This document shows, in pieces, positions 38,075-63,261 of a stretch of DNA of 63,545 bases (its first letter is position 1; every line of letters starts with the position of its first letter). Origin of the DNA: Synechococcus sp. 1G10 (lineage in GTDB: Bacteria; Cyanobacteriota; Cyanobacteriia; PCC-6307; Cyanobiaceae); contig NZ_NQKW01000018.1 of the NCBI RefSeq assembly GCF_002252625.1, forward strand, positions 1-63,545, written 5' to 3'. The position numbers and the translations under genes are program-made. The notes under the pieces are model-generated. The model was not told the DNA's origin and ran no database searches. It saw only the letters and a list, made by a program, of their open reading frames with translations.

Positions 38075-38638
38075 ATGGCTCCCCTGCCGCCGCCTGAGCC
38101 CTCCATCCACCTGGAAACCACGGCGGCTCTCGACGCCCGCAAGCTTCGCTTTGAGCTCAACCGGGTGATGCTGCCGATGGGGGTGGAGGGCACCTACGGG
38201 ATCATTCGCCATCCCGGCGCTTCTCTGGCGGTGCCGATGCTGGCTGACGGCAGCGTGGTGCTGCTGCGCCAGTACCGGTTCGCGGTGGAGCGGCGCATCC
38301 TGGAGTTCCCCGCCGGCACCCTGGAGGACGGCGAGGATCCCCTGGAGTCGATGCAACGGGAGCTGGGGGAGGAGGCGGGCTACAGCGCCAGCCGCTGGGA
38401 TTCCCTCGGTCTGATGCTGCCCTGCCCCGGCTATTCCGATGAGGTGATCCACCTGTTCCTGGCCAGGGATCTCACCCCCCTCAGCGACCGTCCCGCGGGC
38501 GACGACGACGAGGATCTGGACGTGCTGCTCCTGGCGCCCGACGACCTCGATGCGGCCCTGGCCAGCGGTGATGAAGCCCTCGATGGCAAGAGCGTCACCG
38601 CCTGGTTCCGGGCCCGCCAGCTGCTGGGTCTCGGATGA
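38075..38638 (+). CDS. NUDIX hydrolase, ADP-ribose pyrophosphatase-like
   Basis: A 187-residue NUDIX enzyme. The box GTLEDGEDPLESMQRELGEEAG fits the G-x5-E-x7-REUXEE pattern except that it continues GYSASRW. The preceding VVLLRQYRFAVERRILEFP is typical of the ADP-ribose/NudF branch. Probable role: removal of ADP-ribose or a similar nucleotide sugar. The stop overlaps the start of the photolyase gene by 4 bases. Confidence 0.9.
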   Translation: MAPLPPPEPSIHLETTAALDARKLRFELNRVMLPMGVEGTYGIIRHPGASLAVPMLADGSVVLLRQYRFAVERRILEFPAGTLEDGEDPLESMQRELGEEAGYSASRWDSLGLMLPCPGYSDEVIHLFLARDLTPLSDRPAGDDDEDLDVLLLAPDDLDAALASGDEALDGKSVTAWFRARQLLGLG

Positions 38639-40110: not shown

Positions 40111-40126
40111 ACACTCCCATCAGACC

Positions 40127-41980: not shown

Positions 41981-43293
41981 GTGGCTGCAGTATCCATGAA
42001 TTCGGCTGGCACAATGGGGCGTCGCAAGCTCTCAAGTGAAAGGCCATTCTTCAAAGCCAGGACAACACCTGCAGCCTCAAGATAATTGGCAACCTCGATC
42101 GCGTTTTTCAGACCGAGTTTTTCCCGTGTCATCCCAAGAATGGTGTGGTTGGAATGAACTGCTATCAAGGGTATGCCGTGAAACTCCGCTGCCAGCGCTG
42201 GTAGCCCACCAAGAGCAGTGGCTGGAACCACAATGGCACCTACTGAGTTGACTGTGATGCATTCAACTGGGGGACGATCAAGGTCTTCAATCGGGACTAA
42301 GCGAGGCGCCCTTGCCAACCCCTTGAGAACCGAGAAATAATGCGGAGTGGATATAAATTCAGCAGAAGCACGGGGATTGCTGGTAGAACGAATTTTCATA
42401 CCTTGATAGTATGGCAATGGGGAGTGTGCGCAGGGAACGTTGAATACCTTGGAAATCAAGTGAGTAAGAATCGCTTCAACTACTCCCGAGGGATTGGGAA
42501 TTTCACCGCGCATATGGCGTTCGCACATCTCTTGAGTGACGCCATGAATCACAGACACGCCTCCCACCGCGTCGCATCCTGCATCCAGCAAACGGGCCAC
42601 ACCATCAAGGACGGCCTCCGTCGCCTCAAGGATTCCGCTTGCTGAACCACTGGCAGCCCACTCAATGCGTGCCCCGACAGGCGCGTCAAGCATCACCAGG
42701 TGATCACAGGTGATGCCAGCAACAGCCCTGGCCGCATTCACCGCATGCACTACTTCGTCGCAGTGATCCCGGCCTGTTGGGTCGACAAAGGTGCCGATGC
42801 GATTGCCTGGCGAAAGCCGCAACCCAAGGCGGCCGAGCAGAAATCGATCAATGGAGTGCCCCTCCACATAAAGAACGTTGGGGGCTAGCTCATTGATATC
42901 GGAGGCGTTGACGGCATTGGGATGTGTGACAACAAAATCGGCTGCTCGGGCGAGAAGATTGGTTGCGGGCGTCGCATCGCCGGCATAGCCACCAAAGTCG
43001 CAGCGGATACCTGTTGGAACAATTTGAGCCACCGCAAAGGGTGTGGCCTGATAGCGCTTGTGAAGTGGATTTTCGAGATCAGCGCTGACAAGCCTGGAGG
43101 CAAAGCGATGATCGGCTGAGAAGCGCACCAGGGTCGCCTCAACACGCACCGTATCACCATCCGAATCTATAATCGAAAAGCGGATCGGAGAGGCCCCCTC
43201 CCCGATCAGCCGCCGCATGCCAGCCACGAGATCGTGGAGGCGAGCTGGTCCAGCTACGGCTTCCAGATCCAACGTCAGATTCTCAATGCGCAC
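41977..43293 (-). CDS. DUF3326 family protein with an N-terminal extension
   Basis: The 438-residue product contains the DUF3326 core from residue ~88: VAQIVPTGIRCDFGGYAGDA, THPNAVNASDINELAPNVLY and LVMLDAPVGARIEWAASGSA, then VEAILTHLISKVFNVPCAHS. DUF3326 proteins are ~340 residues and occur in cyanobacteria, plants and other bacteria without a known reaction. The first ~85 residues here (LTLDLEAVAGPARLHDLVAG, FSIIDSDGDTVRVEATLVRF) are extra. It follows a methyltransferase gene by 12 bases on the same strand, so these two act together. The tail-to-tail ATP-grasp gene suggests the same pathway. Confidence 0.83.
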   Translation of the reverse strand: MRIENLTLDLEAVAGPARLHDLVAGMRRLIGEGASPIRFSIIDSDGDTVRVEATLVRFSADHRFASRLVSADLENPLHKRYQATPFAVAQIVPTGIRCDFGGYAGDATPATNLLARAADFVVTHPNAVNASDINELAPNVLYVEGHSIDRFLLGRLGLRLSPGNRIGTFVDPTGRDHCDEVVHAVNAARAVAGITCDHLVMLDAPVGARIEWAASGSASGILEATEAVLDGVARLLDAGCDAVGGVSVIHGVTQEMCERHMRGEIPNPSGVVEAILTHLISKVFNVPCAHSPLPYYQGMKIRSTSNPRASAEFISTPHYFSVLKGLARAPRLVPIEDLDRPPVECITVNSVGAIVVPATALGGLPALAAEFHGIPLIAVHSNHTILGMTREKLGLKNAIEVANYLEAAGVVLALKNGLSLESLRRPIVPAEFMDTAAT

Positions 43294-43305
43294 TGCAGTG
43301 ATTGA

Positions 43306-44091
43306 TTATTGAGGTTTTCGACCTCGAGCATAAATGAGTGACCAGGGCATGCGGGCAATACCCTGTTCAAGTTGAATTGTGAAGTAGCGTGGCAAAGCTG
43401 CCTCCACGTCGCTTAGTTCAGCCTTTTCCATTCGGAACAACGTCTTGCAAAACCACACAAGATCGGCATGGCTCGGCAAGTCCCACGTGTAGTGGTGCTC
43501 CTGCTCAACAATATCAACAAAGCCGGCATTGCTCAGTAACAGTGATAGCTCACCAGGCTCTAAAAAAATACCCTCATGGCCGAGATCGGACCAGCGATTC
43601 ACTTCAACATTGAGAAACTGCGCCGGTGCTGAGCCATGCAGAACATCACCAACGGCAATCAATCCATTGGGCCGTAAAGCGCGAAAGGCCTCCCTGAAAA
43701 ACTGCTGCTTGTCTTCCTGATGATGCAGTCCTGCTAGGCAAGCCATGCGATCCATTGAGCTCGTTGGGAGCGCCAGTCGAGACAGAGAGCAGTAAATGCG
43801 GTGATAATGCGCGGGAATGCTATCGGAGAAGTGCGAGGAGTTTTCAATGCAATAAATGTTGCATTCACTGCCAAGCTGGTCGAGAATGCCGTCTGCCAGG
43901 TAGCCCCCTCCCGCAGCGACATCACAGACATCCTGGCCCTGCTGTGCATTAAGTAGATCGAGTATTAGGCGTCTTTCGGTTGCTCTAGTTTCTGGAAAGC
44001 TCCGCATCGCCTGGTTGTATTGGCGTATCCGCTTGACACTGTAGACTGCCGCTCGCTGATCGAACGCATCATCGAAGACGTGTTGTTTCAT
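43306..44091 (-). CDS. Class I SAM methyltransferase, first of a related pair
   Basis: A 261-residue methyltransferase with motif I QDVCDVAAGGGYLADGILD, then MDRMACLAGLHHQEDKQQF and LRPNGLIAVGDVLHGSAPA. It shares a block order with the methyltransferase at 45722: RQYNQAMRSFPETRATE near the N-terminus, GGGYLxD, and FLNVEVNRWSDLGHEGIFLE. I use the ATG at 44091; an in-frame ATG at 44163 would add 24 residues overlapping IS-derived sequence. It leads the operon with the DUF3326 gene. Substrate unknown. Confidence 0.82.
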   Translation of the reverse strand: MKQHVFDDAFDQRAAVYSVKRIRQYNQAMRSFPETRATERRLILDLLNAQQGQDVCDVAAGGGYLADGILDQLGSECNIYCIENSSHFSDSIPAHYHRIYCSLSRLALPTSSMDRMACLAGLHHQEDKQQFFREAFRALRPNGLIAVGDVLHGSAPAQFLNVEVNRWSDLGHEGIFLEPGELSLLLSNAGFVDIVEQEHHYTWDLPSHADLVWFCKTLFRMEKAELSDVEAALPRYFTIQLEQGIARMPWSLIYARGRKPQ

Positions 44092-44190
44092 ACAGTTCGA
44101 GAAACAGTCGCTCTGCAATGCTATGAGCTTGCGGAAAACGACTAAGCAGCTGCATTTTCCCATCTCCGAGCTGATTTCTCTGTGATTTCG

Positions 44191-45111
44191 TCAGCTGGGG
44201 ACATTTCGAGCGCTCAGGCAACCCGATTTCGCTGCACTTGGGCTGTTTTGGCGGCCCGACTGCCGCCGTTTGAGCACACCTTTGGGCAACTGGCGGCTCA
44301 TGCCCTTGCCATGGTGGGCCTGAGCAAGTCGTCCAGTCGGATCAGGTTGTAGGCGATCACGTGCAGCCCGTAGCCGAAGGCTTCTCCGAAAGGAGTACAC
44401 GGCGCTCACGTTTTCCTGGCCGCGCAGTTTTAACTGGCGCAGCCCGCCGAACGCCTTGATCTAGCCAAATACCTTCTCGATGCCGCGGCGGGCATCGCTG
44501 ACCCACCGCTGCGGGCGTTGTTCTGCGCCACGTGGGGCGTCACGCCCAGCCGCCGCATCTCGGCCACGAACCCTTTCGTGTCGTAGTTCTTGTCGGCGCC
44601 AATGGTCTTCTGGTGAGCACCGGCACTATCTGCTGCCATCTCCTGGGCGGGCATCCCGCTCACCGGTGCCCGTGGCCTTGGTGACGCTGCAATCGACGAT
44701 CAGGTCGCGGCGGATCTCCATGAGCAAATGGCCGTCGCACCGATAGGTGCGCTCGCTGGAGCCGTAGCTCAGCTGCGCTGGATGGGCTTTGGATTTCCGC
44801 TCCAGCAGGGCGTCGGGATCCATGCTTGAGCGGTGGGTCTCGTTGCTGAGCTAGATGACGCGAAAGTCACCCTTGGCCCGCTTCTTTCCCTCCTTGGGTG
44901 CACCGAATCCCTCACCAGGACCTGTGGGCGGAGGCGGAGGATCCTCCTGACCATCGATCCGCTTCAAGGAGGCGTATGATGCCCAGGCTTGCAGCAGCGT
45001 GCCGTCCACGGAGAAGTGGTCATCGCTGAGCAGCGGTTTGACCTCGGGGCTGTGGGTGCGGCGTTTGCTCAACTCCTTCGCAGAATACTTCGCCAACGGT
45101 GGGAGCCCCAT
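44191..45111 (-). pseudogene. Dead IS5-family transposase
   Basis: Minus-strand reading gives successive pieces of one IS5-type transposase: LSDDHFSVDGTLLQAWASY (first Asp), an in-frame TAG at 44851-44853, then LSNETHRSSMDPDALLERKS and GHLLMEIRRDLIVDCSVTKA. In other frames follow TIGADKNYDTKGFVAEMRRL and GVTPHVAQN, and a degraded C-terminus. At least three lesions. No terminal repeats found. Confidence 0.8.
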
Positions 45112-45177
45112 TCAGGGACAATGCCCCGCCTCAGAGGTTAACGATGGGCCCTGTCCAGAAAAGCCAGACAATCTCAA

Positions 45178-45381
45178 ATGTCTCAGACCAACGCCAAGGC
45201 GGAACGCTTCATCAAGACACTCCTGGCGGAGTGGGCTTATGTCATCGACTACCAGACATCAGAGGAATGCAACCGCTGGCTAACCCGCTATCTGGGGATC
45301 TATAACGGCCACAAGCGCCACATGGCTCTCGATGGCCTCAGCCCTCAGAAGTGCCTCCAGCACCTGCTGATCGCTGAATAA
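45178..45381 (+). pseudogene. 3' remnant of an IS481/IS3-type transposase
   Basis: About 67 codons of the integrase C-terminus survive: TNAKAERFIKTLLAEWAYVI, then NRWLTRYLGIYNGHKRHMAL and DGLSPQKCL. The catalytic Glu (AKAERF) is present, but the upstream two thirds of the gene is gone. Confidence 0.78.
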
Positions 45382-45395
45382 CCTGATGAGAAAAC

Positions 45396-45526
45396 ACACC
45401 TAGTACCGCAGCGAGCAGCAGGTACCAGGGCCGAATACGCACCCCGCGGTGCATGCGAACGTCCGGGATGCGGCGTTGAAAGCTGGTTAGGTCAAGATCA
45501 GTGGCGGCAGAAGCGGTTTCAGGCAC
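45396..45526 (-). pseudogene. 5' remnant of an ISAs1-type transposase
   Basis: The minus-strand piece FQRRIPDVRMHRGVRIRPWY followed by LLLAAVLGVFS matches the N-terminal block of ISAs1 (DDE_Tnp_1-associated) transposases. It is cut off at the IS481 remnant. About 40 codons in all; assignment by motif only. From here to 45721 the sequence is non-coding and turns strongly A+T-rich. Confidence 0.5.
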
Positions 45527-45721
45527 TGGGAGGAGGCGATCCCACCGACCTCAACCCATGGTGACAGCCATGGCCAGAGAGCCTGTGAGGACTTTAGATC
45601 AGCCCTGAGCTTAGGGTCCTCCGGTGACGCGAAAACTGGGCCAACTCAGGTCCCACTCCAGGAGCAAAGGCCATTCATTCATTGACTTGCCTTTGCTATA
45701 TAATAATTATAAAAGCTGTCA

Positions 45722-46483
45722 ATGCAGATGCATCTCGCCGACTCTTCCAGCACTCTCGAGTATGGCGATATATTCCTTGAGCGTGGCCGTCAGTATCATT
45801 CTGCCATGGCTCGATTCCCAAGGGCTAGAGATCGGGAATTCAGTCAGCTGTTTTCCCGCTTTCCGCTTGGTGAGGGTGAAAACATTGTTGATGTTCCATC
45901 GGGGGGTGGATACCTGAGTGATTTTCTTGCTCGCGAGAAAGGTCACAAGTCTATCCGCGTCACGGAGCTTGAGTTTTCCCCCGGATTCAGCGGTCAAAGC
46001 CAGGTTGTTGAGCCATATGGGGCATGGCCACTGCGGCTAGAGAGCGCAGACCGGATTATTTCATTGGCCTCGTCTCACCACATCGCCGATCTCGATCGAT
46101 TGCTGAACAACTTTGGGGTTTATGTCAGGCCTGGTGGACTTGTCCACATTGCTGATGTTAGCCCCGATGGCGGAATTGCCAGTTTCCTTGATGTGTTTGT
46201 CGATCGGCATACAACTACTGGCCATCGCGGCATCTACCGCCAATTTGAAAGACTGGAATGGCCGGACTGGCTTGATGTTATCCGCATTGAGACTCGGTCA
46301 TGCCCGTGGCGCTTTGACTCCAGCGAGCAACTTGTGGCCTTCTGCCACGGTCTGTTTGGCCTCGGCAAGGATGCCTGGCCACATTTGGAGTCTACGCTGG
46401 AGGAGCTTGTCGGAATCCGCAGTGCGAATGGGGGAGTTGAGCTAGACTGGGAATTGTCGTATATGGATGCCATGAAGGTCTAG
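45722..46483 (+). CDS. Class I SAM methyltransferase, second of a related pair
   Basis: A 253-residue methyltransferase related to the one at 43306: RGRQYHSAMARFPRARDREF, motif I NIVDVPSGGGYLSDFLAR, PGGLVHIADVSPDG and FLDVFVDRHTTTGHRGIYRQ. The acidic SAM-binding residue follows in VTELEFSPGF. The gene is A+T-richer than the core genome. Just upstream, 45682-45713 contains TTGACT and overlapping TATAAT/TATAAA boxes, but with poor spacing, so the promoter is only suggested. It precedes the CphA-like gene by 40 bases and probably shares its transcript with CapA. Confidence 0.82.
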   Translation: MQMHLADSSSTLEYGDIFLERGRQYHSAMARFPRARDREFSQLFSRFPLGEGENIVDVPSGGGYLSDFLAREKGHKSIRVTELEFSPGFSGQSQVVEPYGAWPLRLESADRIISLASSHHIADLDRLLNNFGVYVRPGGLVHIADVSPDGGIASFLDVFVDRHTTTGHRGIYRQFERLEWPDWLDVIRIETRSCPWRFDSSEQLVAFCHGLFGLGKDAWPHLESTLEELVGIRSANGGVELDWELSYMDAMKV

Positions 46484-46523
46484 CGATCCACGGCGCACCC
46501 TGTATCTGCCAGGTTTATGCGAT

Positions 46524-49085
46524 ATGAAAATCTCCGGGCTTCGGTTCCTGCGTAGCGGCAACCTGATCGCTTCCTGCAGCGGAGCGCTTCTCATTCTGGA
46601 GGAGCTAGATTGCGATGAGCAGTTAGATGGTCAGCAGCTTGCCGCGTGGCTGGCATGCCTCCCTACGACCCTCAGGATCTCGCTGGCAAAGCGGCAGGTG
46701 CCGCTGTCAGAGCTTGTACCGCTGTTGCTCTCGGCGCTCACTGAGCATGGCCGGCTAGAACCGGGCACTGCACAGGTTCTGCACCAAAGCGACAGATCTC
46801 TGAAACTGTGGCTACCGGTGGATGATCGAGTTTCCGCCGAGGCAGCGGTTGCACTCATACTTCACATCCTTGATGCCGTTCGGCAGGGGGCAGCACCGAG
46901 TGCAACGACCAACCGACTCTGGACAGCACTGCGTTCAAGCTACTGGAACCAGACACACGCCATGTTGGCCCGTGCCGCCAATGACATCGGCGTTCCCTTC
47001 TATCGGCTGAATTGCGGCGGACAACAGTTCCTTCAGCTTGGTCAGGGCTGCCATCTGCGGCTGTGCCGGGAGACCCTCACCGATCACACCCCGCTCTTTG
47101 CCCAGTGGGCTAACCACAAGGAAGGCCTGCACGCTCTCCTGCAGCACCGTGGGATTCCCTTGCCCTCCCAGGTGGGTGTTGACTCCCTGGAGCAGGCCCT
47201 GGCTGCCGCGGAACAAGTCGGTTGGCCTGTGGTGCTCAAACCAGCCGACGGTGGCAAGGGTCGTGGGGTGTGGGTGGGTCTGGATCACCCGGATGCACTG
47301 CGTCAGGCTTGGGAGGCGCAACACAGGCAGGGTGGAGCACGTCAGCTGGTTCAGCACTGTCTGCAGGGAGCTGACCATCGCCTGCTGGTGGTGGAGGGCC
47401 ACTTGCTGGAGGTGGCCCAACGCCAGCCGGCCAGCCTGGTCAGTGATGGACAACGACCACTGCGCGAGCAGATCGTGCGACTGAATGCAGAACCCGATCG
47501 AGGTGTCGCCTACGAACGGCTGCGCAACCGCATTCCCTTTGATCCACGGCTTGATCAGTTGTTGGCGGATCAGGGTTTCTCGTTGGACGGGGTGCCGCCG
47601 GCTGGCACCGCTGTGCAGCTCTCCCGCACCGCCAACATTTCGCAGGGCGGTACAGCAATCGACTGCAGCCAGGAGGTGCATCCTGATAACCGCCGCCTCG
47701 CTGAGGACATTGCTCAACTGATCGGAGCCGATGTGGTTGGCCTGGACATGATCAGCCGCGACATCTCCGTGAGCTGGCGCGAAGGCGGCACCTGGCTACT
47801 CGAGGCCAACCTCTCCCCTGGCCTGCGGCCTCACCTTGTGGCGAACCCCAGCAGCGATCTCTGTCATCGGATTGTCCGTTGTTGGATGGGTGATGCCCCA
47901 CGGGGCGGTCGCGTCCCCACGGCGCTGATCACCGGCAGCATCGGCAAGACCACCACCACCCGCATGCTCGCCCACCTGCTCCAAAGAACAGGTTTGCGAG
48001 TAGGGCTTACCTCAACGACGGGTATGGAGCTGGACGGGGTCGTCATCGCCCAGGGCGATCTTGCTGGCGGTGGACCTGCATTGCATCTGTTGCAAGACCG
48101 ACGGGTGGAGGCGCTGGTAGCAGAAGTTGCCCGGGGCGCAATCCTGAAAGCTGGCCTGGGGATCGCTCCGGGCGACGTGGCTGCCGTCCTGAACGTGCTT
48201 GACAACCATGTTGGTAACGACGGCATCCGCTCCCGCCAAGATCTGGCAAGAATCAAGGCGGTGGTCGCGCAGGTAGCCGAAACACTGCTAGTGCTGAATG
48301 CCGATGATCCTTTGGTTCTGGCCATGGCTGGGACCCGGCATCCAGACTCAGTGGCATTTGTGAGTGAGGAGCCTTGCTGCGCCGCCTGGCATGCGCATCG
48401 CCGGGCAGGACACTCTGCTATCTGCTACAGCAGAGGACGCGACGGCACGATTCAGCTGTACCAAGCTGGAGAGCTACTGATTTCTATCGCCCTGCGCGAG
48501 ATTCCTGCCGCCGACGATGGCGTCATCGGCACCATCGCCGTAGCCGCCGCTTTCTCCGCTGCCCTGGCCCATGGAATGGGACTGGATGCCAATGCCATTG
48601 TTGAAGGTCTTCGCGCTTACGGGCTGCAGCGCAACCACCGCCGGGGCAGGTTTGAGATCCTGAAGCGAGAACCCTGGCAACTTGTGCTCGCCTGGGCTGA
48701 TGGGCCCGAGGCGATGGCATCGCTCTCCAGCTATGTTCAGGCCGCCACGGAATCAGCGCCACGTCGGCGGGTGTTGCTTTGCTCGGCACCGGACAACCGT
48801 CCTGACGCCTTCCTGAGGCAGGTTGGTCAGGCCACCTGGGGTTTTGACCTGGTCATTGTTGCCAGCTGGGACAAACGGAAGGGCCGCCCAGCTGGGGAGG
48901 TGTCAGCACTGTTGGCGGAGGGAGTTCGCAGCCTGGGCCCAGGGGGGCCAAAGGTGCTTCGGGTTGGCACCGAATCCGATGCCGTGGGCGTACTTGCTGA
49001 GCAGATTCGTCCTGGTGATCTTTGTGTGGTGTGTAGCTATGAAAGTGAGCTGATGCGGCAGCAGCTGCTCACGGCTCTAGGCTGA
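46524..49085 (+). CDS. Full-length cyanophycin-synthetase-like protein (ATP-grasp plus Mur ligase)
   Basis: An 853-residue protein with CphA layout. The N-terminal region covers ~1-185. The ATP-grasp domain covers ~190-450 (GWPVVLKPADGGKGRGVWVG, LSRTANISQGGTAID, EVHPDNRRLAEDIAQLIGAD). A Mur-ligase domain follows with P-loop GSIGKTTTTRMLAHLL at ~470, the GGPALHLLQDRRVEALVAEV and ARGAILKAGLGIAPGD blocks, and a Mur C-terminal lobe. CphA makes multi-L-arginyl-poly-L-aspartate. Here the P-loop reads GSIGK instead of the usual GTNGK, and the neighbours are a methyltransferase and CapA rather than cyanophycinase, so a different polymer or peptide is possible. The stop overlaps the capA-like start (TGATGG). 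Confidence 0.88.
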   Translation: MKISGLRFLRSGNLIASCSGALLILEELDCDEQLDGQQLAAWLACLPTTLRISLAKRQVPLSELVPLLLSALTEHGRLEPGTAQVLHQSDRSLKLWLPVDDRVSAEAAVALILHILDAVRQGAAPSATTNRLWTALRSSYWNQTHAMLARAANDIGVPFYRLNCGGQQFLQLGQGCHLRLCRETLTDHTPLFAQWANHKEGLHALLQHRGIPLPSQVGVDSLEQALAAAEQVGWPVVLKPADGGKGRGVWVGLDHPDALRQAWEAQHRQGGARQLVQHCLQGADHRLLVVEGHLLEVAQRQPASLVSDGQRPLREQIVRLNAEPDRGVAYERLRNRIPFDPRLDQLLADQGFSLDGVPPAGTAVQLSRTANISQGGTAIDCSQEVHPDNRRLAEDIAQLIGADVVGLDMISRDISVSWREGGTWLLEANLSPGLRPHLVANPSSDLCHRIVRCWMGDAPRGGRVPTALITGSIGKTTTTRMLAHLLQRTGLRVGLTSTTGMELDGVVIAQGDLAGGGPALHLLQDRRVEALVAEVARGAILKAGLGIAPGDVAAVLNVLDNHVGNDGIRSRQDLARIKAVVAQVAETLLVLNADDPLVLAMAGTRHPDSVAFVSEEPCCAAWHAHRRAGHSAICYSRGRDGTIQLYQAGELLISIALREIPAADDGVIGTIAVAAAFSAALAHGMGLDANAIVEGLRAYGLQRNHRRGRFEILKREPWQLVLAWADGPEAMASLSSYVQAATESAPRRRVLLCSAPDNRPDAFLRQVGQATWGFDLVIVASWDKRKGRPAGEVSALLAEGVRSLGPGGPKVLRVGTESDAVGVLAEQIRPGDLCVVCSYESELMRQQLLTALG

Positions 49086-50155
49086 TGGCTGGTTTCCCTC
49101 CACGAGTCCCCGGGCTTGTGCGACTGCTTGTCGGCGGCGATCTGATGTTGGGGAGAGGTATCGATTCCATTCGACCGATCCATAACAATCCCGATTTCGG
49201 CAAACAGGATGCCCGCCAGCCGAGTGTCACCGTGGCTTGGGCTGAGGCGGGCGGCCACCGGGTTCCCCGCAACGCCACAGCTCACGCCCTCTGGGGCGAG
49301 GCTTTGGAGCCGCTGCTGGACAGCCAGCCAGATCTGACCTTGTTCAACCTGGAGACGGCGGTGACCAGTCGCGACTGCTGGGTAGCCAAGACATACAACT
49401 TCCGCATGCACCCAGCCGGTCTGGATGTGCTGGAGGCAGCGGGTATCAGCTGCGTGTCGCTGGCCAACAATCATGTGCTTGATTTTGGCCTGCCTGGCTT
49501 GCTTGACACCATCCAGGCCCTTGAGAGTCAGGGTATCAGTGTTGCTGGAGCCGGGCTAAACGCCAGGGCTGCCGCTGCACCAGCCCCGCTGCTGATGCCT
49601 GGTGGTCAGAGGGTCCTTCTGTTTGGCATGGCCTGCTGCAACGCCGGGTGTCGTGCTTGGGAGGCGGCCCTGTCCTATCGGCCTGGTATCGCCTTACTTC
49701 CGAATCTGGAGCTCGCCACTGCCAACGCGGTGTGTCGACTGATCCAGCACTACCGACAACCCGACGACCTAGTGGTGATATCGATTCACTGGGGCGGCAA
49801 TTGGCCTGAGCAGGTGCCCGACCTGATGCGGGCATTCGCCCATCATCTCGTACAGCAGGCTGGTGTGCACTTAGTGCACGGCCATTCCTCCCATTGGCCT
49901 ATGGAGGTGGAGCAGATTGGCGATGCGTTAGTGCTCTATGGATGCGGCGATGTGCTCAACGATTACGAAGGTAGGCCAGATCAAGTGAGCCTCCGCGGAG
50001 ACCTGGGCGCTCTCTATGCAATCGATTTCCAGGAGGCGAATCTCAGGCTTGCCGGCTGGCATAAGTTTATTGTACGCCGCCAGGCCTTTTGTCTGAAACT
50101 GGTTGATTTAGCTGATCAGCAATTGGTGGATTCCCGGCTCCGCATCAATCTCTGA
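49085..50155 (+). CDS. CapA family protein (poly-gamma-glutamate synthesis type)
   Basis: A 356-residue protein of the CapA/PgsA metallophosphoesterase-like family: RLLVGGDLMLGRGIDSI, LFNLETAVTSRD, CVSLANNHVLDFGLPGLLDT, VVISIHWGGNWPEQVP and HLVHGHSSHWPMEVEQIG. In Bacillus CapA/PgsA acts with Mur-like ligase CapB in poly-gamma-glutamate synthesis and export. No signal peptide is seen here, so it may act in the cytoplasm. It overlaps the upstream CphA-like gene by one base and must be translated with it, which links a phosphoesterase-like step to the ligase. Confidence 0.9.
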   Translation: MAGFPPRVPGLVRLLVGGDLMLGRGIDSIRPIHNNPDFGKQDARQPSVTVAWAEAGGHRVPRNATAHALWGEALEPLLDSQPDLTLFNLETAVTSRDCWVAKTYNFRMHPAGLDVLEAAGISCVSLANNHVLDFGLPGLLDTIQALESQGISVAGAGLNARAAAAPAPLLMPGGQRVLLFGMACCNAGCRAWEAALSYRPGIALLPNLELATANAVCRLIQHYRQPDDLVVISIHWGGNWPEQVPDLMRAFAHHLVQQAGVHLVHGHSSHWPMEVEQIGDALVLYGCGDVLNDYEGRPDQVSLRGDLGALYAIDFQEANLRLAGWHKFIVRRQAFCLKLVDLADQQLVDSRLRINL

Positions 50156-50165
50156 AAGACCCCGC

Positions 50166-51371
50166 TCAGATGGCCAGGGCCGCCTTGGTCCCCGCCAGCT
50201 GGCGCACCACCTCCACCACCCGTTGCTGCTTGGCAGCGCTCAGTTCCGGAAAGATCGGCAGGCTGAGCACCTCGGCCGTGAGCCGCTCGGTGATCGGCAG
50301 GCTGCCGGGCCTGTAGCCCAGATCCGCATAGGCCGGCTGGCGGTGGATCGGGATCGGGTAATAGATGATCGTGTTCACGCCGGCCTCGGCCAGGGCCTGC
50401 TTCAGCCAGTCGCGGCAGCAGCTTTCGGGCAGGCCATAGGTGGCGCTGTCGCTGGACGGGACGCAGACACCGCCGCAGCCAGCCTGGGCCGACGGGCAAC
50501 GGGGGATGCGCACCACGAACTGGTTCCAGCTGTGGCCGCTGGGACCCGCCTCAGGCAGGACCAGCCCCTGCAGACCAGCCAGCTCGGTGCTGTAGGTGCT
50601 TGCCAGCTGCCGTCGCCGCTCCACCCACTCCGGCAGGTGGGGCAACTTCACGGAGAGCACCGCCGCCTGCATCGCGTCGAGACGGCTGTTGTACCCCAGG
50701 GAGGTGTGCAGGTAGCGGCGCGGCATGCCGTGCACCGCCAGCTCGCGGATGCGGGCGGCCAGCTTCTGATCCCGGCAGGTGACCGCACCGCCGTCACCGG
50801 CACCGCCGAGATTCTTGGTGGGGAAGAAGCTGAAGCAGCCCGCATCCCCCCAGCTGCCCACCGGCCGCCCGGCCCAGCTGGTGCCGGTGGCCTGGGCGCA
50901 GTCTTCTATCACCAGCAGGTCGTGGGCGGCGGCGATCGCCCCCAGCCGCTCCATGTCCACAGGCCGCCCGAACAGATGGACCGGCATCACCGCCTTGGTG
51001 GCGGGTGTGATCGCCGCCTCGATCCGCCCCAGATCGATGAGGTAGGTGGACTCCTCCACGTCGACGAAGACCGGCTTGGCGCCCACGGCGCTGATCGCTT
51101 CGGCGGTGGCGAAGAAGCTGAAGGAACTGGTGATCACCTCATCGCCTTCACCGATGCCCAGACCTCTCAGGGCCAGCACCAGGGCGTCGGTGCCGCTGTT
51201 GCAGCCGATGGCGTGGGCGGTGCCCACGGCCTCGGCGAACTGTTGCTCGAAACTGGCGATCGTGGCGCCCCCGATGTATTGCCCGCTGCGCAACACCTGC
51301 AGAACGGCGTCTTCGAGGGCCTCACCCAGTTGATGAAGCTGCTCGGTGAGATCGAAGGGGGGCACCTGCAT
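50166..51371 (-). CDS. DegT/DnrJ/EryC1/StrS-family aminotransferase
   Basis: A 401-residue PLP enzyme. The PLP Lys is in FSFFPTKNLGGAGDGG; other blocks are GCNSGTDALVLALRGLGIGE, MPVHLFGRPVDM and VIEDCAQATG. It probably aminates a keto-sugar nucleotide for a surface polysaccharide. An insert at ~290-315 (CGGVCVPSSDSATYG) before the conserved NTIIYYPIPIHRQPAY is longer than usual. It is convergent with the CapA gene (10 bases apart), so it need not belong to that cluster. Confidence 0.92.
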   Translation of the reverse strand: MQVPPFDLTEQLHQLGEALEDAVLQVLRSGQYIGGATIASFEQQFAEAVGTAHAIGCNSGTDALVLALRGLGIGEGDEVITSSFSFFATAEAISAVGAKPVFVDVEESTYLIDLGRIEAAITPATKAVMPVHLFGRPVDMERLGAIAAAHDLLVIEDCAQATGTSWAGRPVGSWGDAGCFSFFPTKNLGGAGDGGAVTCRDQKLAARIRELAVHGMPRRYLHTSLGYNSRLDAMQAAVLSVKLPHLPEWVERRRQLASTYSTELAGLQGLVLPEAGPSGHSWNQFVVRIPRCPSAQAGCGGVCVPSSDSATYGLPESCCRDWLKQALAEAGVNTIIYYPIPIHRQPAYADLGYRPGSLPITERLTAEVLSLPIFPELSAAKQQRVVEVVRQLAGTKAALAI

Positions 51372-55476: not shown

Positions 55477-56570
55477 TGGGATCGTCCGGGATCAGGCAGG
55501 GCATGTGGGGCCTGACCTGTTACTTCAATCCCCTTGGTTGGAAGTCGCGACGGCGGATTTTTGAAACCTTCCAGAGATCATTGAGGATCCCACTTTTTGT
55601 GGTGGAGTGGAGTCCGTCAGGCCAATTTGAAATCGAGCCAGGGAATGGTCTGAAAGTTCTGCAGATCAGCGGTGGCAGCATTCTCTGGCAGAAGGAGAGG
55701 CTCTTGAACATTGGTATCAAGGCACTCCCCGAGGGCTGTACTCATGTGACATTGATGGATGCAGATCTTATCTTTGAAGATGCCGACTGGCATGAACAGG
55801 CCGTCTCAGCACTGAAAACCCATCGGCTGGTCCAGCCATTTTCTGAAGTCTGCCATTTGCCATCAACTATTGACTCCGGCGAATTCATCGGTGTGTCTGA
55901 GGAGCCTGCTTACACATCGAGATGTATCAGCCTGGGTAAGGCCATGTCCGTAGGGGCTGGAGAGAAGGAGATTCTTGATCAGATTATCAGCAATCAATGC
56001 CTGCGCTTTAAAGCTCTTCTTCAGCAAGGAGAGAGTGGTGAGAGGTATTCAATGTGCGAGGATGTGAATGCATTTAGAGAATTGTCCATACCAACACCTG
56101 GCCTCGCCTTGTCTTGTCATAGGGAGACACTTGATCAGCTGGGAGGCATGCCCGATCGCTTCATCGGTGGTGGTGGAGATCTGTTTCTGTTGTTTGGGTT
56201 GCTCGGGAGAGGACATGATCTCGCCGCTGGTTGCTGCAGAGCTGGGCTCACGTATGTGAACCATTTCGCCTATCGAAAATTTTGTGATTCACAAATCCAG
56301 CGCGGCCAGTCACTTGGCTTTCTGCGTCAGCGTGTTTTTCATCTCCACCATGGATCTCTCTCAAATCGTCACTATGATGGCAGACATGTGGCACTGCAGC
56401 GTATGAGAATTGACCTCGACAAGCATCTCGGACTCAGCAGTTCCGGCCTTCTTCGCTTTCGGGGACCCAGCAAGGAACCGTTGGAACGTCATATGAATCA
56501 TTACTTCATGGAACGGATGGACGATGATGAACAGGCAGCAATCAAAGACTCTGCGGGCCAGCGCTTATGA
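55476..56570 (+). CDS. Galactosyltransferase-like glycosyltransferase (GT-A fold)
   Basis: The 364-residue product has a GT-A look: GGSILWQKERLLNIGIKALP, the metal-binding MDADLIFEDADWHEQAV, PGLALSCHRETLDQLGGMPD and RFIGGGGDLFLLFGLLGRG (acceptor-site ED/GD type). No membrane segments; it is probably cytoplasmic and works on a lipid- or nucleotide-bound sugar. It begins on the last base of fabI and overlaps the next glycosyltransferase by 4 bases. A+T content is higher than fabI, so it was probably inserted into the fabI transcription unit. Confidence 0.82.
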   Translation: MGSSGIRQGMWGLTCYFNPLGWKSRRRIFETFQRSLRIPLFVVEWSPSGQFEIEPGNGLKVLQISGGSILWQKERLLNIGIKALPEGCTHVTLMDADLIFEDADWHEQAVSALKTHRLVQPFSEVCHLPSTIDSGEFIGVSEEPAYTSRCISLGKAMSVGAGEKEILDQIISNQCLRFKALLQQGESGERYSMCEDVNAFRELSIPTPGLALSCHRETLDQLGGMPDRFIGGGGDLFLLFGLLGRGHDLAAGCCRAGLTYVNHFAYRKFCDSQIQRGQSLGFLRQRVFHLHHGSLSNRHYDGRHVALQRMRIDLDKHLGLSSSGLLRFRGPSKEPLERHMNHYFMERMDDDEQAAIKDSAGQRL

Positions 56571-58378
56571 TTTGGCCTCTTCTGACATCGGCTCTCGCCT
56601 TGATGTTAGTGCTGCTGATACATCTCAAACTATGGCTACCGATCGGCGATCCTCGCTTCAGTCAGCCGGATCTCGATTGCAGTGAGTTAGTGCCGCGCCG
56701 CTTCAATGCTGTTGGCTTGCTGTTTTGTATCATCGCTTTTCATCTTGCCTGGACCTTGCTCGCCAGCCTTTCCATCGCTCCCACTCTCACTTCTTTTGCG
56801 TGGTTGCTCCTAGGAAATATGATGCTGGCTCCCTGCTTCCTTGCATGGACTCACAAGCTGTGGATCTATAATGGATTCCGCAAACTTCCTATCGATCGGC
56901 CTTGGTCGACTGGAGCTCCTCAACCTGCAGCGGATGGGCTGCCCTCTGTAGCTGTAGTGGTTCCTTGCCGCAACGAACCCTTGGAGGTAGTTCGGCTGAC
57001 CATAGAATCGGTGCTTGAGCTGAAGTATCCTAAAGCGAAAATCTCTCTCATAGTAACCGACAATAGCGAAGATGGCCACAGCGAGTTGAAGCGGCTGCGC
57101 CACTATATCGAAGAGCGTCAATCTTGTGGTATAAATGTGAGCTTGCTACATCGTTGTAGCATTGAGGGGTTCAAAGCTGGCAACCTCGATCTGGCCATTA
57201 AGGTGATCAGTGCAGAGCTTGTCCTTTTTCTGGATGTTGACAACTCTGTTCCAGCCGATCTGTTGATCATGCATGCTACGGCCTTTCAACAAGACAAAGG
57301 CCTTGCCTTTTTGCAATTTTACAATATCCCAGTCAGTCACCCCCTAGGCCGAGTGGCCTCCGCAACAGGAAATCTGCTCGAACGCTGGAAGTACGAAGAG
57401 TTCCTACGCGCTGACATCGGTGGGTGGCCATCCTTCCAAGGACACAACTGCCTTTGGCGAACATCGGTGCTGAAACAGATTGCACCACTCAACCGGTCAC
57501 TTTTTGGAAGGAGCTTGCTGGTCGAAGACTTGCACATGACGATCCGCGCCAATCAACTGGGTATGCATGGTCGGCTGATATGGAGTCCTGCCGCGTTCTG
57601 GACACCCATGCGCTTGCTCGATCTGGAATCGATGTTGGTACGGTGGTGTCATGGCTCACTGCAGGTCCTGTTCAAAGAAGTGACGTTCCTACTCTCTAGT
57701 CGCCAGGGTTCGTTGACTCTGGGTGGGTATGTTGATCTTTGGGATCGCCTTATAGGCATGCGAGCATTATCATTATTTCCATTCTTTCTGATCCTACTCC
57801 CACAGTCTGTTTGGGGAACAGGCATCCTCGTTCTCTCATCATTGCTCATCTCAGCGATTCTCCCTGTTTTTGTAATCATAAAGAGACCAAATACGCGCCC
57901 TTGCCAGGCCAAGCCAACAAGAAGCTACATACTAGATATCTTTCTATTGGGAAACTTCGCAAACTGGTGCGACCTAAGGGGGATTGCTGAGTTTCTGGGG
58001 CCCAATCGCGCTCGGTGGGTTCCCACTGGCAAAGCACCCGCTTCAGATCAGTCAGGAGATCTGCAGAAATTAACACCATTCGGCCAATCTATGAGCCATC
58101 TTTGTTCCACTTATCGCTGGCCACTTGCCTTCTATTTCAGCGCACTGATATTTTTTATTTTGCGACAATGCCATGGCCCGGTGAGCGCTGCATCTTTGAT
58201 GTCATGGATTCCGCTATTTGGACAAGCGGTGGCTGTTTTGTCAGCAATTATAATATATGGGCAAGAAAAGCCCAATAGCTCCAAGTCGCTAATCGAAACG
58301 TGTTCAGCTCGTAGATGGAATTACGGGCATGACATCAACCCCCTGCTTGCATCCGGCGCGCAGCACACGAATTTTTAG
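56567..58378 (+). CDS. Membrane family 2 glycosyltransferase, processive (cellulose-synthase-like) type
   Basis: A 603-residue protein with two to three N-terminal membrane helices, a GT2 domain and four or five C-terminal helices. Motifs in order: VAVVVPCRNEPLEVVRLTIE, TDNSEDG, LFLDVDNS (D-x-D), PSFQGHNCLWR, LLVEDLHMTIRA (ED catalytic base) and LVRWCHGSLQ (the QxxRW-like site). This set matches beta-glycan synthases that polymerise and export a chain. It is translationally coupled to the preceding glycosyltransferase. Product unknown; gene A+T-rich. Confidence 0.86.
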   Translation: MIWPLLTSALALMLVLLIHLKLWLPIGDPRFSQPDLDCSELVPRRFNAVGLLFCIIAFHLAWTLLASLSIAPTLTSFAWLLLGNMMLAPCFLAWTHKLWIYNGFRKLPIDRPWSTGAPQPAADGLPSVAVVVPCRNEPLEVVRLTIESVLELKYPKAKISLIVTDNSEDGHSELKRLRHYIEERQSCGINVSLLHRCSIEGFKAGNLDLAIKVISAELVLFLDVDNSVPADLLIMHATAFQQDKGLAFLQFYNIPVSHPLGRVASATGNLLERWKYEEFLRADIGGWPSFQGHNCLWRTSVLKQIAPLNRSLFGRSLLVEDLHMTIRANQLGMHGRLIWSPAAFWTPMRLLDLESMLVRWCHGSLQVLFKEVTFLLSSRQGSLTLGGYVDLWDRLIGMRALSLFPFFLILLPQSVWGTGILVLSSLLISAILPVFVIIKRPNTRPCQAKPTRSYILDIFLLGNFANWCDLRGIAEFLGPNRARWVPTGKAPASDQSGDLQKLTPFGQSMSHLCSTYRWPLAFYFSALIFFILRQCHGPVSAASLMSWIPLFGQAVAVLSAIIIYGQEKPNSSKSLIETCSARRWNYGHDINPLLASGAQHTNF

Positions 58379-59043
58379 TTGGATCAAACAGCCGACGTCT
58401 CGACAAGAGCACTGCTTCTGCCTGAGGCAGGCTCATAATTGCCTGATGATTGATGAATTCTGATCGACTGCGGCAACTGCTCCTCGCCCACGTAGTAAAG
58501 GTTTGGTTTCCTCGATGCTTTGATCCTGCTGGCCCAGGCCTTTCTGATGAATTTGGCCCAGACTGGTCACCAATACTTGGTCGTCCACGGCTGCTGGAAT
58601 TCAGTACAAGGCAGCCCTGGATGGGGGGTGATGCCCTATCTTGGGTCTATGCCGAAGCACCAGTGCAGCTGCTGCCCTCCAGTGGTTGCGTCAAGGTTCA
58701 GCCTCAGTTTTGCAGCTACCTAGGGTAGATCCCCGAGTAGGTTTCAGACGTGCGGTTATTCAAAATCTATAGGCTTTCGTAAAGTGCAGCCTATCAATCG
58801 ATGGCAGCCTCCAGTGCTTTGATGCCAAAGTGGAACATTGCCTGACCCTTACCGTGTAATCAGGAAGGTTGCAGATAGCGATATTGTAGAGGGTGTGTAT
58901 TGAGCATGACAGCGCGCGCATAGTGCGGCGTACTGAAACTGGATAAGTTCCCGGTATTTTCGCCATGAATCTGGCCGCTAATGACCATGTTGCGTGGAAA
59001 CCGGCTACGATTTTCACCCAGAACTTCTGGTCGTGAATCGAGG
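58379..59043. other. Region without a recognised gene
   Basis: Short open frames (for example 58450-58728, plus strand) show no family motif and no consistent coding pattern. Hydrophobic pieces such as LILLAQAFLMNLAQ could be transposase debris, but I cannot name one. The right end must contain the promoter of the radical SAM gene. Confidence 0.5.
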
Positions 59044-60550: not shown

Positions 60551-62593
60551 TCATGCGATGATGCCGAGACTGCGTAGCTGATCCATCACTTGAGAACTGA
60601 CGTTTGCTGCCTCCGTGACGGACACCACTCGCTCCTGACAGGGCAAGTGGCGCGCGCGAGTAGGAGTGGCCACTACTACCTGTGAGCATGTCGAGAGCCA
60701 CTGATCCCAGGCGAGAGGCATTGAAGGGCCTCCATCGAGCAGTACAAGAACATCGGCCTTGACCCAGGCGAGGCCGTGCTTCATGACGGACTCGACTTCC
60801 AGCTCAATAAGGAAGGCATCGGTGTCCGGATCCCTGAGCGCACGACGCTGACCGGAAAAAGAACGGGCATCATCATCGCTCCAGAAGACACCTCCCTGGC
60901 GCCAACCGTCTTGATCGACCACCGCCAACTGCGGAAAGACAGGGGAGAGATCTCGTTCGAGTTCCGCGATCACAGCGCGCGCTTCCTCCCCACCCTGTAG
61001 TACGACGAGAGGCGGCCGATCGAGATCTTCCAGCAGGGTAGCCAGAGTTTCAACCATCAGATCGCGATTCGGCTGGGCCAGCTGATGTGGGAGGACGCCC
61101 GGCATCCCGTTTACCTCGCAGATCACGCCACCGCTAATCCTGAGGGGAATATCCAGGCACGGGGAAATCACATCGATACCGACAATATCCAGGTGGAAGA
61201 TCCGAGATACCTTCTCAAGCAGCCTTCGGTTGTCAGGATGCACCTCAGCAAGACACTCCCTTACGGTTCCACCCGTGCTGAAATTGGCTATAGGACTCAG
61301 CCGTACGACCTGTCCGTCTTCAGGGACGCTTTCTGGCGAGAGATGCTGGGCCATGAGAAGGTGCTTGGCCTCGTGGTCAAGTTTTATCGGGTTGAAGTGG
61401 ATGCTTTGCTCCCCTTCCACGCTGATGGGGTTTTTCCCGCGATCACGATTCGCCGCTTCCACTAGTTGCCGGACATTGCTACGTCCATCTCCGTAGACCT
61501 GCGCGGAAATCCTTTCCAGTGCCGCGAGCAGCCTCCCCCTCACGATATAGAATCGATAATCTCGCCCCCTGATGTGGGGCTGAAGCAGTACGGGAGTTCC
61601 TGCAGCCTCGCTCCGCCGGTAGGCCTTCAGCAGATCTTCTCGGCTTCGGATACCTGTGACTACACCCATTCCCTGGTCTAAATTAGCCGGCTTGGTTACG
61701 ACGGGATAGCCCATTTTCTCAGCCAGATCGACGGCTTGGCGAAGCGTCGTGACCAGCCGCCCCCCTAAGACTGGCAGACCAGCTTGTAAGAGTAGCTTGG
61801 TGGTTTGCATTTTCTGCTTGGAGAGATGCAGACCCCAAGCACTTGTACTCTCAGTGATCTTCTGGGAGATGCGGCGAAGTCCACGTCCGCGCCCGATGAC
61901 CAGCATGGGTGTGAAACTGACGAGATCTTCGACGTGCCAATCGACGCCAAGTCTCAAAGCTGCGCGAGCCATCGCAAGGAGAGAGGCCTTGGGCCGGAGA
62001 CGGCTGGGGGGGGCTGATGTCACGAGAGTCCGCCGCTGCTGCCGCGGACCATCAGTTAGAGCCCACTCCCAGAGCATGCCGGACCATGCCAAGCCAGCGA
62101 GCAGTTGCTGAAGTGAACCACCCACGAGATCGATGCCAATCCTTAGCCGCAAGGTGTTCTGTGCATGATCCTCTTGGGCGGTTGGGGTAGTTCCCAGGCT
62201 GCGTGGCGCCTCGATCCGGACCATGCCTGCACGGAACTGGAGGGCATCGACCCAACGCAGCAACCACGATTCAAGATCGGGCACCTGTTCTACATCTCCA
62301 GTAACCTCCAGGGAGGATCCTGGGGACGTATTATCGGGTGTGGCTGTAGCTTTTGCTTCGTCAAACTCATTGGTATTTTCGCTTTCATCGGACGCCTGCG
62401 GATCTTTGAAGCTGCCGAGGAGAGAGTCGGGTTCAGGAAGTTCTCGCAGCAACTCCCGCAGTCGCTGATGCGTCGGCATTCTAAACAGTCCGAATAGGTG
62501 ATCTCGTCTTGCCTCCACCTGCAGGACGGCCGTGGGCAACGAACTCACCGGACTGCAGCCTTCATAGTTGGCAAGGGCACGGACGTGGATCAC
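60551..62593 (-). CDS. Cyanophycin-synthetase-like ATP-grasp ligase with a vestigial Mur domain
   Basis: A 680-residue protein. The N-terminal region has an Asp/Glu/Thr-rich low-complexity insert near residues 60-95. ATP-grasp spans ~265-510 (HLSKQKMQTTKLLLQAGLPV, YPVVTKPANLDQGMGVVTG, LQPHIRGRDYRFYIV, EVHPDNRRLLEKVSRI, VICEVNGMPGVLPHQ). The C-terminal ~170 residues keep a stretch like the central Mur-ligase region of CphA (LRDPDTDAFLIELEVESVMK, HGLAWVKADVLVLLDGGPS), but there is no P-loop and no C-terminal lobe. Likely a single-site amide ligase. The GTG start overlaps the stop of the methyltransferase upstream (GTGA). Confidence 0.8.
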   Translation of the reverse strand: MIHVRALANYEGCSPVSSLPTAVLQVEARRDHLFGLFRMPTHQRLRELLRELPEPDSLLGSFKDPQASDESENTNEFDEAKATATPDNTSPGSSLEVTGDVEQVPDLESWLLRWVDALQFRAGMVRIEAPRSLGTTPTAQEDHAQNTLRLRIGIDLVGGSLQQLLAGLAWSGMLWEWALTDGPRQQRRTLVTSAPPSRLRPKASLLAMARAALRLGVDWHVEDLVSFTPMLVIGRGRGLRRISQKITESTSAWGLHLSKQKMQTTKLLLQAGLPVLGGRLVTTLRQAVDLAEKMGYPVVTKPANLDQGMGVVTGIRSREDLLKAYRRSEAAGTPVLLQPHIRGRDYRFYIVRGRLLAALERISAQVYGDGRSNVRQLVEAANRDRGKNPISVEGEQSIHFNPIKLDHEAKHLLMAQHLSPESVPEDGQVVRLSPIANFSTGGTVRECLAEVHPDNRRLLEKVSRIFHLDIVGIDVISPCLDIPLRISGGVICEVNGMPGVLPHQLAQPNRDLMVETLATLLEDLDRPPLVVLQGGEEARAVIAELERDLSPVFPQLAVVDQDGWRQGGVFWSDDDARSFSGQRRALRDPDTDAFLIELEVESVMKHGLAWVKADVLVLLDGGPSMPLAWDQWLSTCSQVVVATPTRARHLPCQERVVSVTEAANVSSQVMDQLRSLGIIA

Positions 62594-63261
62594 TGTCCAA
62601 CAGGTTCAAGGGGTCGAGGCCGACGCTGCACAAGTGTCACTCCTTGAGCGATGGCGAGATCAAATACTTGCAGATCAGCATGTCCTCTAAGCTCTTCAAC
62701 ATAACGCCAGGTCGTATGCTTATACCGTTTTTCCGGGCCGTAGATTTCTGAAAGAATCTGACTGTGGCTGTCGTGAAACAGAGCAATTGCTCCTGGTGCG
62801 AGCTGCGGTAGAAATGCCTCAAATTCAAGGCGACACTGCTCTTCCGTATGTAGGCCATCAATAAATAGAAAATCAACTTCAAGCTGCATAAAGTCCGCGC
62901 TTTGGACCACTTCTTGGCTGGTCTGCTGGCGATGCTCGATGCAGGTAATTCCGTAGGAGGCAAAGTATTTGTCGGCGCGCCCATCTTTCCAGTGGTCGTC
63001 AGCAAAGGAAGGGTCAATGAACAGAATGCGACCCCTGTTGTCATTGTCTTGAATCGCCCGGCCGATCAAGAGAGGAACGAATCCTCGCCAAGAGCCAATG
63101 ATCACGGCAAGTCGTGGACGCAGGGTTCGAGCGAGGCCGTAGTACGTCCAGCCTAGGCCGAGTTCGCGGCGCTCAAAGTCCTGACCATGTCCCATCTCCC
63201 AAAGATCGGGAGTCATGGCCATCTCATTGATGAGGGAGAAGAGCGACATGCCCGTATTCAT
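62590..63261 (-). CDS. Class I SAM methyltransferase (Methyltransf_24-like)
   Basis: A 223-residue protein with a modified motif I (VIIGSWRGFVPLLIGR), RGRILFIDPSFADDHW and VDFLFIDGLHTEEQCRLEFE, LPQLAPGAIALFHDSHS: the pattern of Methyltransf_24/cephalosporin-hydroxylase-like O-methyltransferases found in sugar and secondary-metabolite clusters. It is the first gene of a two-gene unit with the ATP-grasp ligase (GTGA overlap). Substrate unknown. From its start to the window end (63262-63545) I see no gene. Confidence 0.83.
   Translation of the reverse strand: MNTGMSLFSLINEMAMTPDLWEMGHGQDFERRELGLGWTYYGLARTLRPRLAVIIGSWRGFVPLLIGRAIQDNDNRGRILFIDPSFADDHWKDGRADKYFASYGITCIEHRQQTSQEVVQSADFMQLEVDFLFIDGLHTEEQCRLEFEAFLPQLAPGAIALFHDSHSQILSEIYGPEKRYKHTTWRYVEELRGHADLQVFDLAIAQGVTLVQRRPRPLEPVGQ

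Follow-up and report, generated by a model that had tools for sequence, protein, structure and literature searches.

The window analysed here, a stretch of 63,545 nucleotides that forms a whole contig of Synechococcus sp. 1G10, carries near its end an open reading frame (60551–62593, minus strand) with similarity to the cyanophycin synthetases (CphA). The earlier note had described it as a CphA-like ligase without a P-loop, coupled in translation to a methyltransferase, and this was confirmed: the frame is intact, with a GTG start and 680 codons, it lacks the P-loop and matches to the Mur models, and it joins the upstream gene through a GTGA overlap. Genes in the window were defined by longest open reading frames together with homology, a codon-usage caller having missed some; the codon model, trained on the window, called neither 60551 nor the methyltransferase at 62590, nor some other genes, consistent with atypical codon usage. 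Frames resembling NdhC/K/J, PsbE and Ycf48 were recognised in the window by eye, a gene content that points to a cyanobacterial host.

The 60551 protein comprises an N region (residues ~1–203), an ATP-grasp G domain (~204–525), a Mur-like stub devoid of a P-loop (~526–622) and a tail (623–680). The N region matched no family and gave no alignment to the CphA1 N domain in hhalign. In Pfam, the RimK model (PF08443) was matched at 36.2 bits (cut-off 21). The best NCBIfam models were those for cyanophycin synthetase, namely NF010623 (254 bits, E 2.4e-75, curated cut-off 877) and a second model (231 bits, cut-off 850); as both scores lie below the cut-offs, 60551 is related to these models without belonging to them. 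N-acetylglutaminylglutamine synthetase (TIGR03103, 130 bits) and the GshA/GshB fusion (NF002688, 105 bits) came next, far under their cut-offs of 569 and 425, with the likeness confined to the ATP-grasp region. A phmmer search of the PDB placed CphA1 chains on top (E 7.8e-45 to 5.4e-40, the best being 7LGN over residues 204–619), followed by 7TA5 (9e-36) and 8FXH (4.4e-31), which we take to be CphA2-type structures, their database titles being glutathione synthase and RimK domain-containing protein. Profile comparison by hhalign, with profiles of unequal depth, gave E 2.7e-52 for another group of reduced ligases (clade C, below), 9.3e-44 for CphA1, 1.2e-39 for the full-length atypical type and 8.1e-37 for CphA2. 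An AlphaFold model computed from an alignment of the three ligases in the window had a mean pLDDT of 34.9.

Judged from the sequence, with a domain score above the curated cut-off and the ATP/Mg residues kept, 60551 is an ATP-grasp carboxylate-amine ligase. K301, R347, E493 and N495 are all present, and we take K301, E493 and N495 to be ATP/Mg-binding positions of the ATP-grasp fold. Arg309 was conserved in 49 of 49 aligned proteins (14 CphA1, 11 CphA2, 5 full-length atypical, 18 reduced and 1 other), in the numbering of TeCphA1, which was verified for Glu215, His267 and Arg309. The TeCphA1 study reports roles for these three residues, with Arg309 binding ATP/Mg, and for Arg458, the last being needed for recognition of the substrate aspartate (PMC9427784). 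The four counterparts in 60551 are H256, Q307, R347 and L501. Arg458 is present in all 14 CphA1, all five full-length atypical proteins and the one other, and in none of the 11 CphA2 or the 18 reduced ligases, two of which are gapped there; since CphA2 is also without it, the loss of Arg458 by itself does not rule out a dipeptide-joining activity. His267 is retained in 13 of the 14 CphA1, the exception being the protein of genome G055, which has Gln and adjoins a cyanophycinase, so that lack of this residue has no diagnostic value by itself. Cx19HxxEH, the N-domain motif of CphA1, likewise occurred in 13 of 14 CphA1 (absent in G055) and in no reduced ligase, 60551 included.

The Mur half was examined with sequence and profile comparisons (phmmer, BLASTP, hhalign and HMM tests). 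The stub, at residues ~526–625 (60719–61018, minus strand), contains the LRDPDTDAFLIELEVESVMK-HGLAWVKADVLVLLDGG block, which had been likened by eye to the CphA/Mur block; the match of LRDPDTDAFLIELEVESVMK-HGLAWVKADV to that block was borne out by phmmer, by BLASTP to 46524 and by hhalign, and is weak when the C-terminus is scored alone. With an HMM built from 14 CphA1 Mur cores, the isolated C-terminus of 60551 scored 10.7 bits (E 0.04) and that of its ortholog in genome G046 14.4, the best of 1750 shuffles reaching 6.7. When longer HMMs were used, the scores were 9.5 bits for CphA1, 9.2 for CphA2 and 9.0 for the full-length type (best shuffles 5.2, 7.7 and 7.2), and HMMs of two other reduced clades gave 2.2 and 0.5, with best shuffles that were higher (7.9 and 7.4). 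By these scores the predicted Mur remnant of 60551 is above chance, yet weak on its own. For 40127, a second reduced ligase in the window, the 14-core HMM gave 3.4 bits, inside the shuffle range, and the longer CphA1 HMM 8.5 bits, the best shuffle of 5.2 here coming from shuffles of 60551 and its ortholog only. At the P-loop position 60551 reads QGGEEAR, and the Pfam models Mur_ligase_M and Mur_ligase_C, both of which match 46524, found no match in it; the absence of a P-loop and C-lobe, as originally read from the letters, thus stands.

The gene upstream in the operon (62590–63261, minus strand) encodes a Methyltransf_24 methyltransferase of 223 aa (66.8 bits, Pfam cut-off 26.3), to which no PDB chain was matched by sequence. 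In the overlap, ...GGACA GTGA TCC..., the ligase start GTG (62593–62591) and the methyltransferase stop TGA (62592–62590) interlock, the two genes having four bases in common, and the GTGA overlap claimed in the earlier note is therefore placed at 62593–62590. A pair with an identical overlap occurs in G046 (a genome in one contig, from a different genus); there the ligase is 51–52% identical to 60551 and the methyltransferase 72–73% identical to 62590. By segment, identity between the two ligases is 64.0% in the G domain, 49.5% in the stub, 35.5% in the N region and 32.8% in the tail. In searches of 300 genomes of the family, the 60551 ligase type was found in two, namely the genome of the window (G000) and G046, the best three candidates per genome having been scored, and the 62590-type methyltransferase in the same two; with two carriers, the conservation of the operon amounts to a single comparison. 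A search of 388 class genomes showed this ligase type in G000 only, the next match (E 5.7e-52) being a 927-codon frame. The suggestion that the ligase-methyltransferase pairing repeats at 45722/46524 did not hold: the methyltransferase at 45722 belongs to another family with no BLASTP link to 62590, it stops 40 bases short of 46524 with no overlap, and none lies beside the G046 ortholog of 46524.

A plasmid origin was considered and rejected. Among 72,556 plasmid records the 62590 methyltransferase had no match, and the ligase matched 128 records partially, none over 80% of the query, the 15 listed ones being annotated as cyanophycin synthetase. A role in anti-phage defence was likewise rejected, as PADLOC had no match for the proteins P0001, P0002, P0003, P0005 and P0006; the radical-SAM neighbour was a weak viperin-type match.

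The proposal that a family of reduced CphA-like ligases exists was borne out. At E up to 1e-12, 14 of the 300 family genomes matched 60551, and they hold several reduced lineages, of which 60551 is, by its sequence, one. No report of such ligases from picocyanobacteria came up in a limited literature search. The CphA-like genes of G000 number four: 60551; the 617-aa reduced ligase 40127 (40127–41980, plus strand), which lies in a clade other than that of 60551 in the best trees; 46524 (46524–49085, plus strand), a full-length atypical ligase recognised by Pfam, NCBIfam and alignment, with ATP-grasp and Mur parts and the P-loop GSIGKT; and one on contig C44. Clade A consists of 60551 and its G046 ortholog. 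Clade B comprises 40127 and ligases of G276 (contig C149), G239, G047, G260 and G092, joined in the 46-row tree by a second G276 ligase (C59); those of G276:C149 and G239 are followed by a methyltransferase of the 45722/43306 family. Clade C joins the C44 ligase and those of G046 and G276, which accompany a P450 and a TauD-type frame, with ligases of G007, G002 and G104, which are followed by a 537–564-aa protein and a group-1 glycosyltransferase (Pfam having been run, among the clade C glycosyltransferases, on that of G007). The G007 copy of the 537–564-aa protein matched nothing in Pfam or NCBIfam, and by eye only it resembles the alkaline-phosphatase superfamily. Intact copies of the full-length type occur in G000, G046, G007 and G002; in G276 it is fragmented across two contigs, and in G104 it is represented by a C-terminal piece.

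Several of these loci deserve description in their own right. In three genera (G000:C44, locus L037 6186–10738, and loci L057 and L058) a reduced ligase stands with a cytochrome P450 and a TauD-type dioxygenase frame, which looks like a small biosynthetic cluster; the TauD-type frame is only 150 aa in G276, and C44 also holds a 180-aa protein beside the three. Full-length and reduced CphA-like genes occur with the 537–564-aa protein and the glycosyltransferase in loci L035, L036 and L061. A ligase of the 40127 clade adjoins an autotransporter beta-domain gene in L066 (7112–10756, by Pfam) and L065 (7529–10866, by homology). In L064 (5109–8462) a 609-aa reduced ligase is convergent with a separate 479-aa frame that matches Mur_ligase_M and Mur_ligase_C. 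The reduced ligase of G276:C152 (L075, 5462–7370) is broken into two overlapping frames, with an internal stop in one match, and G180 has an intact frame similar to it, the N-termini being alike by eye.

The earlier note also held that the reduction had occurred independently in 40127 and 60551. The best trees keep the two apart, and a branch with 60551, the full-length type, CphA1 and CphA2 on one side and the remaining reduced clades on the other was obtained at 95/92 (35-row tree) and 93/87 (46-row tree). However, AU tests did not reject a single clade of 60551 and 40127 (p 0.083 in the 46-row and 0.146 in the 35-row tree), nor, in the 46-row tree, one of all reduced ligases (p 0.28), of all reduced ligases with CphA2 (p 0.21) or of 60551 with CphA1 (p 0.059). 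Separate losses of the Mur half are thus favoured by these alignments, not proven. The deep order was open in the first tree, which included an outgroup; the long-branch rows big_G045, red_G180 and red_G168 and two outgroup rows were left out of the second and third. Two proteins initially taken as CphA2 candidates (G033:C264 and G026:C286) turned out to be ATP-grasp proteins of other kinds and were used solely as the outgroup of one tree. In two best trees 60551 joins the full-length 46524 type, at 77/44 and 87/70, a join which these trees do not resolve and which is not relied on, because it brings together two long branches, as flagged by the tree tool (35- and 46-row trees). The two types share superfamily and host group, the full-length one differing in that it retains the P-loop, the Mur C-lobe and Arg458.

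The ligases of the window lie in two gaps between conserved neighbours. In all four of the genomes G001, G002, G003 and G008, a DegT match follows the photolyase gene after 24–84 bases and hisB follows fabI within ~0.75 kb. In the window, 40127–50155 fills the photolyase-DegT gap, and the stretch from 55473 to at least 63261 lies in the fabI-hisB gap, the contig ending at 63545. The photolyase-DegT gap (window 38635–51371; loci L055, L058, L067 and L076–L079) is empty in four of four genus relatives and holds differing ligase modules in G000, G046 and G239: in G046 the full-length ligase only, and in G239 a 40127-type ligase with a methyltransferase. Beside the photolyase, G276 has a P450-type ligase followed by the full-length gene. 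The fabI-hisB gap of G046 contains, in order, the 55473 homolog, a glycosyltransferase, an epimerase, the ligase and the methyltransferase. CphA-like ligases recur in the two gaps, which vary in content from strain to strain.

Other genes of these islands may bear on the chemistry. A family 2 glycosyltransferase, cellulose-synthase-like (56567–58378, plus strand), is found in the fabI-hisB island of both G000 and G046, and from this shared island we infer a link to the 60551 ligase. Beside it, window 58450–58728 holds a truncated GlcNAc 2-epimerase-type gene, the G046 copy of which is longer (407 aa) and matches over the first 57 residues only; the gene after it, at 58981, is of the radical SAM type (NF033640, 367 bits), and none of the G046 loci searched gave a match to it. 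In the other island, a CapA/PGA_cap frame begins at 49085, the last base of the full-length ligase, and shares that one base with it (window 46524–50155); it might point to a surface polymer, and no CapA match was found beside the G046 ortholog of 46524. Short frames at 44999–45526, inside the 40127–46524 island, are like stretches elsewhere in G046 and G104 and transposase-like by eye.

The known enzyme that 60551 most resembles in its end architecture is CphA2, and the architecture is in this respect not new: two papers describe CphA2 as having lost the P-loop and the Mur lid (Mlid) (PMC9427784) and as lacking the N-domain motif (PMC9262961). Like CphA2 (relatives PDB 7TA5 and 8FXH/8FXI, ~600–680 aa), 60551 combines an N region, an ATP-grasp domain and a Mur remnant without P-loop or lid, and neither has the CphA1 N-domain motif or Arg458. 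To CphA1 (PDB 7LGN, 7LGM, 7LG5 and 7WAC) it is homologous over residues 204–622, the ATP-grasp and the start of the Mur core, although it lacks the P-loop, the Mur lid, Cx19HxxEH, His267 and Arg458. The note had named an ATP-grasp tree that placed 60551 with true CphA2 proteins as the outcome that would overturn its reading, and this did not occur: the 11 CphA2 rows of the 46-row tree form their own 100/100 clade without 60551, and a branch of CphA1 plus CphA2 (98/90; 93/88 in the 35-row tree with two CphA2 rows) leaves 60551 on the other side with 16 reduced and 5 full-length rows. G-domain identity is at least 63.4% among CphA2 and 28.6–36.2% between CphA2 and 60551, and the phmmer E-values of 60551 are better for the CphA1 chains than for 7TA5 and 8FXH. 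The AU test did not fall below 0.05 for a clade of 60551 and CphA2 (p 0.052 in the 46-row tree, 0.108 in the 35-row tree with two CphA2 rows), and the two may be sisters; by its sequence, 60551 itself is not CphA2. The host also speaks against such an activity. CphA2 needs beta-Asp-Arg, supplied through CphA1 and cyanophycinase, and in G000 neither a canonical CphA1 nor a cyanophycinase was found, TIGR02069 being absent from G046 too. Of the 14 family genomes with such ligases, ten (all except G045, G047, G092 and G260) were searched for cyanophycinase (TIGR02069) and IaaA (PF01112), which were detected in G055 only, with neither in G000 or G046; in G055, the positive control, they flank a canonical CphA1 on either side. 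IadA was found in none of the 14, and CphA2, at E up to 1e-90, in 27 of 116 class genomes, G000 not among them. For comparison, a survey gives, for 79 complete cyanobacterial genomes with CphA1, cyanophycinase in 98.7% and IaaA and/or IadA in 98.7% (PMC10206079). As its genome yielded none of the cyanophycin-breakdown enzymes sought, 60551 probably joins other building blocks, and with its co-translated methyltransferase it is set further apart; that it acts as a CphA2 we regard as improbable.

Still less credible is that 60551 is a decaying, functionless remnant of CphA. Most of its Mur half is gone, its codon usage is atypical and a relative in G276:C152 is broken; against this, 680 codons are open, the ortholog in another genus is intact, with the G domain and stub conserved at the identities given above, and the partner methyltransferase is more similar still, with the overlap preserved. 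Greater weight, though still that of an unlikely alternative, may be given to a partnership with the full-length 46524, either as a complex or sequentially on one product. The 60551-, P450- and glycosyltransferase-type reduced ligases occur in six genomes (G000, G046, G276, G007, G002 and G104), in four of which the full-length gene is intact, G276 having it in pieces and G104 as a C-terminal piece; moreover, ligase and full-length gene are separated by ~10 kb in G046 and 11.5 kb in the window. However, G239 has a 40127-type reduced ligase with no full-length type found, 60551 and 46524 sit in two separate variable islands, and the retention of the ATP-grasp residues in 60551 argues against a purely structural subunit.

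We therefore prefer, with reasonable though far from complete confidence, to read 60551 as a putative single-active-site ATP-grasp carboxylate-amine ligase, derived from CphA, with a product that would not be cyanophycin and would undergo methylation by the co-translated Methyltransf_24 enzyme. Going by its fold and the residues it keeps, the G domain would use ATP to phosphorylate a carboxylate, and attack of an amine on the acyl phosphate would yield an amide. The Mur half, shrunk to a P-loop-less stub, would have lost its ligation and is probably structural, by analogy with CphA2. The methyltransferase most likely methylates either the substrate or the product of the ligase; in all this we infer the catalysis, the substrate class and the order of methylation and ligation. 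Ligase and methyltransferase would then be a single module in a collection of reduced CphA-like ligases, several of which stand beside tailoring genes of their own.

A wider interpretation, which we put forward as a tentative one, is that CphA parts have given rise in these cyanobacteria to a hitherto undescribed modular amide-forming system, in which a full-length core ligase would work with interchangeable one-site ligases and their matching tailoring enzymes (methyltransferases, a P450 plus dioxygenase, glycosyltransferases), encoded in strain-variable islands and making varied peptides, or surface polymers decorated with peptides, that have no connection with nitrogen storage. In the papers examined, the characterised CphA-type ligases make one storage polymer. 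If the reading of 60551 is true, the CphA scaffold would have been turned to other chemistry in these cyanobacteria, through reduced single-site derivatives with varied tailoring enzymes, and the 60551 type, having lost P-loop and lid, would offer a second CphA2-like endpoint from which to trace the change from a polymerase with two sites to a ligase with one.
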